A stretch of DNA of 35,518 nucleotides from Psychrobacillus soli. GTDB lineage: Bacteria > Bacillota > Bacilli > Bacillales_A > Planococcaceae. The notes beneath the pieces were generated by a model that was not told the DNA's origin, ran no database searches, and saw only the letters and a list, made by a program, of their open reading frames with translations. Positions within the stretch are counted from its first letter, which is position 1, and each line of letters opens with the position of its first letter. This document shows, one piece after another, positions 1-35,518 of the stretch. The stretch is from assembly GCF_006861775.1 (NCBI RefSeq), contig NZ_VDGG01000008.1, forward strand, positions 1-35,518, in the 5' to 3' direction. The position numbers were made by a program, and so were the translations under genes.

Positions 1-30
1 ATTTACTGGATTTACACATTCGAAAAAACT
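1..30 (+). repeat. Tail of a GRTTGCT-array repeat, cut by the window edge
   Basis: The first 12 bases are identical to 14265-14276, the end of the array described at 14114-14292. The similarity continues, more weakly, through the following C-G-poly(A) stretch. The last array unit (GGATT) starts at base 8 here and at 14272 in the internal copy. The rest of the array must lie to the left of the window. Together with the palindrome at 79-219 this makes a second copy of the composite repeat. Nothing in 1-332 looks coding. Confidence 0.7.
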
Positions 31-78
31 GTAAAAAATTTCGTTTTTTACGAGCCGAAGCTGATAAGTAAGCAATTT

Positions 79-219
79 CCGTTGATTTTCGCTGTAGGAG
101 ACGACTCCTGCCGGATGAGTGAGCAAATGAGACATCCCTACGACGCCTAAGCGGCGGGGATGGCTCATCGCTCACCCGGCGGAAAGCGTTCGACTGCAGC
201 GGAAATCCCAGCGAACACT
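79..219 (+). repeat. Large imperfect palindromic intergenic element, copy 1
   Basis: The left arm (about 79-135) and right arm (about 153-213) are imperfect reverse complements, for example GATTTTCGCTG at 84-94 against CAGCGGAAATC at 197-207. The inner arms pair GATGAGTGAGC (114-124) with GCTCATCGCTCACC (163-176). A second copy lies at 14332-14543; a 41-bp block, 149-189, is identical to 14473-14513. It has no plausible ORF. It lies downstream of the codY terminator, so it is outside the codY transcript. Palindromic, locally GC-rich elements of this sort are scattered in Bacillales intergenic regions; family membership here is inferred. Confidence 0.8.
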
Positions 220-332
220 TTATTCAACTTACTACCACGCATTATACCTATAATGCGACTTGTAGAATCTACAGGATTTCATGAACACTAGATTATTAGC
301 TTGCCAAATCTACATATTATCTGGATCACAAA

Positions 333-8631: not shown

Positions 8632-8662
8632 AGTACGGTAGCATCATTCGATGCACCGTACT
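8632..8662 (-). terminator. Terminator of the sucCD operon
   Basis: An outer stem of 8 bp (8632-8639 with 8655-8662) and an inner stem of 5 bp (8641-8645 with 8650-8654) are separated by one bulged A. On the minus strand the hairpin is followed by TATTTTTATA. It starts 8 bases past the sucD stop. The hairpin ends only about 20 bases before the dprA start codon, with the dprA ribosome site just beyond the T-tract. Confidence 0.9.
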
Positions 8663-8669
8663 ACTAATA

Positions 8670-9572
8670 TTAATGTGTTTTACAAGCGTCGTAAAGACCT
8701 GCTTCTTTAATTGCTTCGATTAAAGTTTCACCAATAACAGATGGAGTTGCAGCAACTTTCATTCCTGCATCTTTCATTGCTTGGATTTTTCCTTCTGCCG
8801 TACCTTGACCGCCGGAAATAATTGCTCCAGCATGTCCCATACGTTTACCTTCAGGAGCAGTTTGACCACCAATAAATCCTACAACTGGTTTTGTCATATT
8901 AGCTTTAATCCATGCTGCTGCTTCTTCTTCCGCAGTACCACCGATCTCACCAATCATAACAACCGCATATGTTTCTTCATCTGCATTGAATGCAGTTAAA
9001 GCATCGATAAAGTTAGTTCCATTTACAGGGTCTCCACCAATACCAACAGCTGTCGTTTGACCGATACCAGCTTGTGTTAACTGATGAACTGCTTCATACG
9101 TTAATGTACCAGAACGTGAGACAACGCCTACGTGACCTTTTGTATGAATATATCCTGGCATAATACCGATTTTACATTCATCTGCTGTAATAACACCAGG
9201 GCAGTTTGGTCCTACTAAACGAGTTTTCTTTCCTTCCATGTAACGTTTAACGTTTACCATGTCAAGTACTGGAATATGTTCTGTAATACAGATTGTCATA
9301 TCTAACTCAGCATCTACTGCTTCCATAATCGCATCAGCAGCAAATGGAGCTGGTACATAAATTACGGAAACGTTCGCACCAGTAGCTTTTACAGCGTCTT
9401 CTACTGTATTGAAAACTGGAACGCCTTCTACTTCTGTACCACCTTTACCAGGAGTAACCCCAGCAACGATTTTTGTACCGTATTCAAGCATTTGTTTTGT
9501 ATGGAAAAGAGCAGTTGAGCCCGTAATTCCTTGAACGATTACTTTCGTATCTTTATTAATATATACGCCCAC
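8670..9572 (-). CDS. sucD: Succinyl-CoA synthetase alpha subunit
   Basis: The 300-residue alpha subunit of the TCA-cycle enzyme that converts succinyl-CoA, ADP (or GDP) and phosphate to succinate, CoA and NTP. The CoA-binding Rossmann domain is N-terminal ([15 protein letters not shown] at 13-27). The phosphorylated histidine is H247 in [12 protein letters not shown]. Translation starts at GTG (9572); this start matches the family N-terminus (M-x-V-x-INKDT). It lies 18 bp after sucC in the same operon and ends at a strong terminator. Confidence 0.98.
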
Positions 9573-9590
9573 TATATGTCCCTGCCTTTC

Positions 9591-10751
9591 TTATCCTACA
9601 AGATTAACGATTTTTTGAGCACCGTCTGCCATTGAGTCAGCAGCGATAATATTTAAGCCGGATTCATTTAATAATTTTTTACCTAAATCGACATTTGTTC
9701 CTTCTAAACGAACTACTAATGGCACAGAAAGTCCTACTTCTTTCGCAGCGATAATAACACCTTCTGCGATTACGTCACATTTCATGATACCACCGAAGAT
9801 ATTAACGAAAATACCTTTTACGTTTGCATCAGAAAGGATGATTTTGAATGCTTCTGTAACTTTTTCTGCAGTAGCACCGCCCCCAACGTCCAGGAAGTTT
9901 GCGGGTGAACCGCCGTAATAGCTAATCGTATCCATAGTAGCCATTGCAAGTCCTGCTCCATTAACCATACAACCAATATTTCCATCTAATGAAATATAGC
10001 TTAAGTCATATTTAGAAGCTTCGATTTCTTTTGCATCTTCTTCATCAAAATCGCGCATTTCTAAAATATCGCTATGGCGATATAAAGCGTTTGCGTCGAA
10101 GTTAAATTTTGCATCAAGTGCTAAAACGTTGTCATCCGCAGTTACTACTAACGGGTTGATCTCAACGATAGATGCATCTTTTTCTTTATATACTTGGTAT
10201 AAGCCAAGCATAAATTTAGCTGCTTTATTAACAAGTTTTGCTGGAATATTCATATTAAAAGCCATGCGGCGAGCTTGGAAGCCCGTTAAGCCTACAACAG
10301 GATCAATCTCTTCATAGAAAAGCTTTTCTGGTGTATTTGCAGCTACTTCCTCGATATCCATACCGCCCTCTTCAGAGCCCATTAATGTTACACGAGAAGT
10401 TGCACGGTCTAGTACTAAACCTACATAATACTCCTTCTTAATATCGCTACCTTCTTCGATCAGTAAACGCTTAATTTCTTTACCTTCTGGACCTGTTTGG
10501 TGTGTTACTAACACTTTACCTAATAGTTCCTTCGCGTATTCACGTACCTCATCTAAACTTTTTGCGATTTTTACCCCACCAGCTTTACCACGACCACCCG
10601 CGTGAATTTGAGCTTTAACAACATAAACGCTTGAGTTTAACTCTTTTGCTGCTTTAACTGCCTCTTCAGGTGAAAAAGCAACAATTCCGTTTGAAACTGC
10701 TACGCCATATTGTCTGAGGAGTTGTTTCCCTTGATATTCATGGATATTCAT
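9591..10751 (-). CDS. sucC: Succinyl-CoA synthetase beta subunit (ADP-forming)
   Basis: The 386-residue beta subunit, which supplies the ATP-grasp nucleotide site and joins SucD in the heterodimer or heterotetramer. The N-terminal signature [12 protein letters not shown] is intact. The ATP-grasp domain covers about 1-235 ([17 protein letters not shown] near 47-63), and the C-terminal ligase domain includes [11 protein letters not shown] and [11 protein letters not shown] longer frame starts at 10769, but GGAGG lies between that codon and the ATG at 10751, so 10751 is the start. A good sigma-A promoter lies about 50 bp upstream. Confidence 0.98.
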
Positions 10752-13828: not shown

Positions 13829-13948
13829 ATGTATCGGTCGTTTTTTCGTTTAATTAAAAATGCTTGCATAGTTTTTTCTAACGATTTGAATCTATATTTC
13901 AGATTGTAGTGATATTGCGTTTTAAAGTAACCACTAGCCTTCGCGCTT

Positions 13949-14002
13949 GCCGCAGTCATGAGCCAACTCGTGTTGCACACGAGTGGGTCTCATGACTGCG
14001 GC
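13949..14002. repeat. Strong GC-rich inverted repeat between rnhB and rbgA
   Basis: The outer arms of 14 bp pair perfectly (13949-13962 with 13989-14002). After one bulged T at 13988, inner arms of 10 bp (13963-13972 with 13978-13987) pair with a single G-T-type mismatch around a 5-nt loop. No T-run follows on either strand, so it is not a standard terminator. It differs in sequence from the palindromes at 79-219 and 14332-14543. The base composition is much richer in GC than its surroundings. Confidence 0.8.
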
Positions 14003-14113
14003 TCATGCGGCCCGGCGCGCTACGACAAGTATAACCGCTCTATTTATTTAAAGAAGATTATCCAATAAAAAAATGCGCAACGTTACAGGCGTTACTCGCA
14101 ACGTTTATAAATA

Positions 14114-14292
14114 ATGCGTCCAATTCCTGGTCGTCTTCCCCCAAGTCAACTTGTTATTTTAAGAATTGATTGCTTTCACCAGCAATTTGGTTGCTCTCAT
14201 GTTAATTTGATTGCTTTTGGAATAGAATTGGTTGCTATCAATGACCGAATGGTTGCCATAAGCCATTTACTGGATTCTCTTAGTCGAAAAAC
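14114..14292 (+). repeat. Leader plus phased GRTTGCT array, complete internal copy
   Basis: Bases 14114-14232 align without gaps to 35400-35518, with 98 of 119 identities by hand count. The leader (first 57 bases) is about 72% identical and the array part about 92%. The array holds degenerate GRTTGCT units starting at 14168, 14189, 14209, 14230, 14251 and 14272, so the spacings are 21, 20, 21, 21 and 21 bp. The last two units decay (GGTTGCC, GGATTCT). Its end matches bases 1-12 of the window. No gene is evident here. Confidence 0.85.
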
Positions 14293-14331
14293 CTATATAT
14301 TTTTTTAACAAGACGATGCTAAATAAGTAAA

Positions 14332-14543
14332 CAAATTCCATTGATTTTCGCTGCAGGCGTCGACTCCAGCCGAGGCCTGCAGGATGTTGGTCACGAAGGC
14401 GTTGCCACACGATGTGGCGCTCTTAGCCTTAGTTCCTCCGTTGGGCTAATGAGACATCTCAGGCGTACGCGCAAGCGGCGGGGATGGCTCATCGCTCACC
14501 CGGCGGAAAGCGTACGACTGCAGCGAAAATCATAGTGGTCACT
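14332..14543 (+). repeat. Large palindromic intergenic element, copy 2 with extra internal segment
   Basis: The outer arms are a perfect 14-bp inverted repeat (14343-14356 with 14518-14531). The right half is nearly identical to copy 1: 14473-14513 equals 149-189 over 41 bp. Between CCG (14370-14372) and AATGAGACATC (14448) this copy carries 75 nt where copy 1 has 12, including a small GCCAC/GTGGC hairpin. Open frames across it (for example 14341-14535) have no start signal or homology and are not called. It follows the array at 14114-14292 at nearly the same distance as in the left-edge copy. Confidence 0.82.
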
Positions 14544-14605
14544 AAGACACACTATCCCTAAACTGTCCCATTCCATAAACTTTTTTATGTCTGAACCACG
14601 AGAAA

Positions 14606-35378: not shown

Positions 35379-35399
35379 GAGATTCCCTTTTTAGGGATA

Positions 35400-35518
35400 A
35401 TGAGTCGTAGTCATTGTCGTCTCAATCCAAGTAAACTTACTATTTTAAGCGTTGGTTGCTTTCACCAGGAATTTGGTTGCTCTCATGTTGATTTGATTGC
35501 TTTCGAAATAGAAATGGT
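35400..35518 (+). repeat. Leader plus phased GRTTGCT array, cut by the right window edge
   Basis: This aligns without gaps to 14114-14232. Array units start at 35454, 35475, 35495 and 35516 (the last cut), with spacings 21, 20 and 21, exactly those of the internal copy. It lies upstream of the yloU promoter and reads opposite to yloU. A palindrome should follow outside the window if the whole composite is present. Confidence 0.85.

Follow-up and report, generated by a model that had tools for sequence, protein, structure and literature searches.

Several described systems share part of their architecture with the repeats analysed here, and each is taken as it appears in the cited part of its source. 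BOX, a modular, interspersed MITE-like repeat of Streptococcus pneumoniae and S. suis, has end modules that enclose tandem internal modules in varying number, and the same internal module can lie between differing ends (PMC3049150). MITEs, including the Tn3-derived TIMEs, are short, non-coding and bounded by terminal inverted repeats (TIRs), occur in many copies and leave empty sites in relatives (PMC4133298). The DNA uptake sequence (DUS) of Neisseriaceae is a short motif found throughout the genome, whose core is conserved and whose other bases vary by species; it is terminator-associated and occurs as single sites or inverted pairs (PMC3630211). In Beggiatoaceae, the TAACTGA repeats constitute 169 sets of short intergenic direct repeats in a single genome, and most of them immediately precede a start codon (PMC4679880). 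TIGR arrays are built of repeats of 8-12 nt and spacers of 9 nt, with two alternating repeats, 36-nt guides and a position beside a Nop-domain gene, and the TasR repeats start with UG and end with CCA (PMC12045711). The row for the Bacillaceae-1 RNA (RF01690) in the table of a 2010 survey reads Y, n, n (PMC2864571), which likely denotes a probable RNA that is neither cis-regulatory nor a riboswitch.

The composite repeat of this Psychrobacillus genome is a modular MITE, comparable to pneumococcal BOX. The likeness lies in the modular layout, with end modules around a tandem interior; it concerns the layout as described for BOX, and no relationship is claimed. The arrays here differ from the internal modules of BOX in being 21-bp phased, in comprising several types and in being found outside the element and in other genera too. 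Taken as a whole, the composite appears somewhat probable as a non-autonomous modular mobile element of Psychrobacillus that has captured a separate component, the array, predicted to consist of protein-bound phased sites with a boundary role. Term searches of the open-access literature, at the level of the results listed, brought up no recognised description of these arrays or of the element.

The window, i.e., the whole stretch of 35,518 nucleotides that was analysed, is the start of contig C80 of a draft genome that comprises 101 contigs and 4,226,526 bases. A preliminary description had reported three copies of an array-palindrome repeat, all on the plus strand, with all genes on the minus strand; the three copies were all located at their reported positions and on the reported strand, and the ORFs taken as genes in the window do lie on the minus strand (gene names without Pfam support are our own assumption). 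The arrays of copies 2 and 3 are 81% similar over 129 bp, and the hairpins of copies 1 and 2 are 88% similar over 77 bp and 86% over 50 bp. The near-equal distance from array tail to palindrome (76 and 71 bp) also held, the D11 and D5 starts being 63 and 58 bp apart, a difference of 5 bp. The complete copy, previously placed at 14112-14543, is real, but its TIR-to-TIR extent is larger (Table 1) and takes in, left of 14112, a second palindrome and a pair of units that belong to a different array type; it contains no ORF of 80 aa or longer. Copy 1 is truncated because the contig starts at window base 1, within the repeat, while the array-to-hairpin match of copy 3 runs on to C80:35833, past the window end, in a similarity search of the genome that scored 40 of 264 candidate regions. 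The fifth unit of the type A array in the window is degenerate, and the array has the edge motif CCATTTACTGGATT, both as read from the sequence. In the sequences read, type A and type C arrays are bordered by the motif CCATTTAYTGGATT (reverse ATCCAATAAATGG; e.g., window 14263-14276), type B arrays are bordered by the similar RTCCAWTAAA, and the edge motifs resemble a shared leader.

Table 1. Features of the composite repeat in the window (positions are those of the window)
Feature	Position	Strand	Remarks
Whole TIR-bounded composite element, between rnhB and rbgA	13905..14562		TIR-to-TIR; short gap in 12/18 congeners
Left TIR, degenerate, TGTAGTGATATTGCGTTTTAAA	13905..13926	+	7 mismatches to 22-bp consensus; weak alone
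Second, distinct palindrome, GCCGCAGTCATGAG...CTCATGACTGCGGC	13949..14002		Read from sequence; present in copy L011 too
Array type B, two units CGCAACGTT, 21 bp apart	14075..14105	+	Sequence reading; motif scan flagged second unit only
Array type A, five units of approximately GARAGCAAYYAAWT (TTGGTTGCT on + strand), 20-21 bp apart	14164..14276	-	Motif scan: four units; unit consensus from the 98 own arrays
GC-rich hairpin (palindrome module)	14341..14532		Fold prediction of 14335-14540, minus strand
Bacillaceae-1 RNA (RF01690), inserted in hairpin tip	14376..14442	-	64.3 bits against gathering score 35
Right TIR, TTTAGGGATAGTGTGTCTTAGT	14541..14562	-	4 mismatches to consensus
Copy 1, cut at contig start: array edge 1-12, hairpin 82-207, right TIR 231-252	1..252		No Rfam match
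Copy 3: left TIR 35390-35411 and start of array A	35390..35518		Match extends outside window

The alignment of long genome copies suggested that the copies end in an inverted motif, TATAGGGATAATGCGTCGTAGT. This 22-bp TIR has 104 matches in the own genome at up to three mismatches, and a two-unit array pattern has 314 (162 forward and 152 reverse); the reversed-pattern control of either gave none, so that the copy number is far above chance. Of 40 relatives searched for the TIR, 7 of the 18 congeners gave a match and none of the 22 genomes from other genera did, a set distinct from the other-genus genomes in which arrays were read; the reversed control matched once, in G002. TIR-to-TIR elements of 224-822 bp were delimited in loci of the own genome (26, one pair being nested) and of relatives (20). 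In its fullest form, the element runs from a TIR through hairpin, middle and inverted hairpin to the other TIR, the same hairpin arm adjoining both TIRs; judged by marker motifs, the layout with two facing hairpins is complete in 16/20 elements of the relatives vs 4/26 own elements, the rest being partial. Some middles lack an array; in the others, arrays are of type A, B or C and may point either way. In size (below about 1 kb), lack of coding capacity, number of copies and terminal repeats, the elements thus match MITEs, from which they differ by the long GC-rich hairpins adjoining the TIRs. No parent transposase was found: none enclosed by a TIR pair was noticed in the fetched loci of the own genome and relatives, among the matches listed. 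Nor was a clean or consistent target duplication seen at the junctions, some of which are mirror-like. The flanks are palindromic (GCRCAW/WTGYGC), with CAT/ATG in some and CAG/CTG in others, which suggests that the target of the element may be palindromic.

A candidate autonomous transposon in contig C28 of the own genome, with two TIRs 4.5 kb apart, turned out to be two separate elements. A lone close TIR match in G001 (L109, contig C27, 3444-3465) has no convincing partner nearby, and is surrounded by ORFs that we take to be prophage-like. No similarity to the element was found in plasmid or phage records, and a scan of named genomes with the exact TIR gave no match, in a set that possibly lacks the own genome and in two members of which arrays were later found. 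Several draft contigs start or end inside elements (C34:2-294, C51:1-297, C9:1-171 and window base 1), so counts based on the assembly probably underestimate the number of copies. Riboswitches of the FMN and SAM classes are neighbors of some elements, at no more than about 2 kb (L017, 1189-1325; L008, 3295-3395).

The mobility proposed in the preliminary description is supported by the TIRs, the dispersed copies and the gaps of relatives, which are short at the same place. When the own genome (G000) was compared with 18 congeners, the rbgA-rnhB gap measured 106-221 bp in 12 of the 18 (10 of the 12 read as sequence), 713-846 bp in the own genome, G006, G011, G013 and G016, with a TIR-bounded or TIR-remnant insert, 329 bp in G009 and 1,254 bp in G010 (L142). 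By eye, the left end of the insert is at the same place in G000, G006, G013 and G016, and the interiors are different. G006 and G016 contain one interior at this site in opposite orientations (502 bp at 90%, BLAST), which would fit either in-place inversion or re-insertion, the data not separating the two; in G016, the same element is present at two sites (670 bp at 90%, BLAST). At a second orthologous site (C80 35310-36002, between divergent genes), the left junction is likewise at the same place and the interiors differ in G000, G006, G013 and G016; the site holds other inserts in G011 and G008 and measures just 265 bp in G010. Junctions and orientations were compared by eye at three sites, with BLAST backing for sites 1 and 2. 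As with MITEs, relatives therefore provide empty sites, namely the short rbgA-rnhB gaps and G010 at the second site, although the exact pre-insertion sequence is not fixed. The gap of G010 that follows window position 8656 is 1,313 bp long; it presumably reflects an insertion of an IS3-type transposase.

The preliminary description also regarded the association of array and palindrome as fixed, which is not supported across the genome. Loci fetched by type A similarity (not a census) gave 98 distinct type A arrays, of which the 89 with at least 400 bp on both sides were kept, the flanks of the other 9 being too short. A hairpin recognised by a single search motif, with other hairpin subtypes uncounted, was found near only 32 of the 89 (downstream of 26, upstream and inverted at 8, on both sides of 2), near none of the other 57, and never in shuffles. 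The TIR is present within 900 bp of 52/89 arrays (on both sides of 16), leaving 37/89 without it. Furthermore, G007, G008 and G009 have arrays and gave no TIR match; therefore, arrays exist without the element. In the own genome, they are located mainly away from divergent promoters and often between convergent gene ends: 85 arrays passed the flank filter, 5 of these overlapped an ORF of 110 aa or longer, and the 79 with two neighbors were in 30 convergent, 4 divergent and 45 codirectional gaps. This differs from the position of the TAACTGA repeats, since the Psychrobacillus arrays avoid divergent gaps and convergent ones are common.

The period of the arrays is narrow. Unit steps in the 98 own arrays, with 18-24 bp allowed, were of 21 bp (293), 20 bp (49), 22 bp (3) and 18 bp (1), i.e., 342 of 346 steps were of 20 or 21 bp. 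Peptide coding by 21-bp units was not considered further, as a 20-bp step would shift the reading frame. The two-unit GGTTGC pattern matches G000, G006, G010, G011, G013 and G016, and once G003, while the ACTTGC pattern has 38 matches in G004, 23 in G007, 25 in G008, 98 in G009 and 1-3 in four other congeners; its control pattern matched once each in G000 and G017. The types are not exclusive, as G000 contains A, B and C, in addition to 17 weak ACTTGC matches that are mostly AGTTGC among the matches listed. Nearly the same phase with other centers was found in three other genera (GAACGC-AAAT-AAAC; GAGAGC-GAAT-AAAC with GAACGC-GAGT-AAAY; and GAACGC-GCAT-AAAT), with 20-bp steps outnumbering 21-bp steps for the GAACGC-AAAT-AAAC and GAACGC-GCAT-AAAT centers. 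The class thus comprises 20-22-bp-phased repeats in at least four genera of the family. A family scan at up to one mismatch matched 65/250 genomes, many single matches looking like coding DNA; as its reversed control also matched some genomes (with up to 5 matches on one strand), the statements on other genera rest on arrays read directly. Giant arrays, about 800-1,300 bp long and containing higher-order repeats, are present in both G009 and G000. The one in G000 (L257, G000:C36:36001-50000, approximately 9100-10170), located between pyrG and a convergent DUF2529 gene, contains six higher-order repeats, each about 165 bp in length and made up of several type A units, and those in G009 (L252, L253 and L254) consist of GCAAGTAAAC units, one of them with a 226-bp higher-order repeat.

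The convergent ywjG-pyrG gap, where ywjG encodes DUF2529 (with Pfam support), was read in 18 Psychrobacillus genomes, i.e., the own genome and 17 congeners, G002 giving no match. A motif-free lag test was adopted because a strict TTT-N4-GC regular expression missed most arrays. In 13/18 genomes, 21 was the best of the lags 14-31 (p 0.003 in 12 genomes and p 0.017 in G007, the smallest possible value with 300 shuffles of two-base blocks being 0.003). No significant period was found in G001, G005, G008, G014 and G017, although G005 contains inverted ACTTGC-type units by eye. The 13 genomes are not independent, since several are close relatives and G012 and G018 are nearly identical at this site. 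The core is of the TTGGTTGC type in G000, G006, G010, G013 and G016, TTTTGTCGC in G011, TTTACTTGC in G004, G007 and G009, a mixture with TTGGTCTCG in G003 and G015, and TTTTACGACAAT in G012 and G018. By eye, the direction is the same for the TTGGTTGC, TTTTGTCGC and TTTACTTGC types, and is not comparable for TTTTACGACAAT; G004 and G009 have inverted units too. At this site, a phased array thus persists under a changing core, a pattern not accounted for by the simple transposition of a single element.

Conservation was assessed in 22 of 49 five-unit arrays, those of one family with the chosen spacing. It was 0.94 for the core vs 0.78 for the spacer, a difference partly built in because the arrays were found via the core; core positions unused in array finding still reached 0.90 vs 0.78 (p = 0.02). 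The TTGC is 95-100% conserved at each of the five unit positions and the flanks are 51% identical, figures that are partly ascertained. In the sole orthologous array pair, that of G004 and G009, the core changed at 1/54 and the spacer at 6/67 positions (p = 0.13). Spacers are common by descent among paralogous arrays.

These observations bear differently on the alternatives. One reading, which follows the preliminary description, takes the composite for one functional unit with a polarity fixed relative to replication or genes, and 3/3 window copies do share one orientation. Among the relatives with a chromosome-size contig, hand counts favor the lagging strand by 21:9 in G008 and, among the loci listed, by 26:10 in G004; positions were collapsed by hand, 3 of the 39 listed G004 loci were dropped for ambiguous skew, and one G008 locus (1.69 Mb) is near a sample of opposite skew. 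However, the hand count for G010 is 9:3 for the leading strand, so that the bias in the three relatives is modest and of opposite direction in different species. In the own genome, forward and reverse matches are nearly balanced, single contigs hold both orientations among the matches listed, arrays point either way inside TIR-bounded elements, and those in codirectional gaps have the same sense as the ORFs in 25 cases and the opposite one in 20, i.e., no strand bias. By the orientation counts against contig, genes and replichore, fixed polarity was rejected and that reading is very improbable; the refutation proposed in the preliminary description largely holds for polarity and partly for association. 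As a separate observation on core types, it is the TTTACTTGC arrays that lean to the lagging strand in G008 and G004, and the type A arrays in G010 that lean the other way. A non-coding RNA gene is an improbable account of the whole element: the Bacillaceae-1 hairpin would be functional, and the array would serve as a single-stranded binding platform. The hairpin at 14335-14540 folds on the minus strand with an MFE of -83.9 kcal/mol (z -4.24, 0/200 shuffles as stable), the match to the Bacillaceae-1 covariance model in its tip is full-length and exceeds the curated cut-off, and the RNA was found in 17/20 element loci chosen by hand (18 matches). Its absence from copy 1 in the window speaks against this account and implies that it is an optional insertion in the hairpin. 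The array RNA is unstructured (z -0.57), there is no strand bias relative to genes, and the promoter-like matches found around the window copy are no more numerous than in shuffles (2 vs 1.9 expected). Guide-RNA arrays of the TIGR type, with 12-nt repeats and 9-nt spacers, are the least probable of the alternatives. Type A on the reverse strand reads TGARAGCAAYYA plus 9 nt, with the lengths and the TG...CCA ends (UG...CCA in RNA) of that system, but other array types have no CCA end, one repeat recurs here at steps mostly of 20-22 bp instead of two alternating ones (type B alternates in its flanking bases), and the spacers of paralogous arrays share a common descent.

The main rival to a function of the arrays is neutral minisatellite evolution, in which slippage and unequal exchange would make and homogenise the repeats, mobile elements and gene conversion would spread them, and the pile-up in convergent gaps would arise only since insertions there are harmless. 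It is favored by the higher-order duplications in G000 (about 165 bp) and G009 (226 bp), by the rarity of arrays in divergent gaps (4/79) and by the balanced orientation relative to genes. Against it, steps are mostly 20-22 bp across four genera despite different cores, the 21-bp period at ywjG-pyrG is kept under a changing core, and the conservation of TTGC per unit position exceeds flank identity. Because ascertainment inflates core conservation and the G004/G009 pair is not significant, this rival stays alive, as a tentative possibility well short of an even chance.

TIRs, hairpins next to them, interchangeable interiors, many copies and, at one site, short gaps in most congeners characterize the element itself. 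For its movement, a transposase supplied in trans would recognise the TIRs and insertion would occur in intergenic DNA at palindromic targets of approximately GCRCAW/WTGYGC, after which recombination between copies might swap or invert the interior. The array is probably an older, separate component that was captured by the element. That a unit spans two helical turns in four genera, whatever its core, suggests that the DNA may be read from one face of the helix. Each unit would then be a site on that face, and a sequence-specific protein might bind the units cooperatively at gene ends, so that the array would act as a boundary between convergent genes.

A bolder extension is doubtful but worth stating: the arrays may form a family-wide system of helically phased 'dialects', in which a putative trans-acting factor reads 21-bp-spaced sites at the 3' ends of genes and its specificity drifts between species, more than 100 dispersed sites changing their core together while spacing and location persist; the composite in the window would be one vehicle that spreads a new dialect. 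The arrays might resemble the DUS dialects in logic only, and they differ from DUS, with its single sites or inverted pairs (in the part of PMC3630211 cited), by their 21-bp phasing.

For the Rfam family, the full-length match places an orphan Bacillaceae-1 RNA inside a mobile hairpin in Psychrobacillus, where it is an optional passenger, and this bears on how the family is to be read. If the dialect reading is true, the arrays would provide a tractable bacterial case in which scattered DNA sites and the factor that reads them turn over in concert, with a logic like that of uptake-sequence dialects or satellite evolution, and one orthologous site would supply natural replicates. Should the arrays prove neutral, a BOX-like MITE is still seen here capturing, inverting and exchanging modules at fixed sites.
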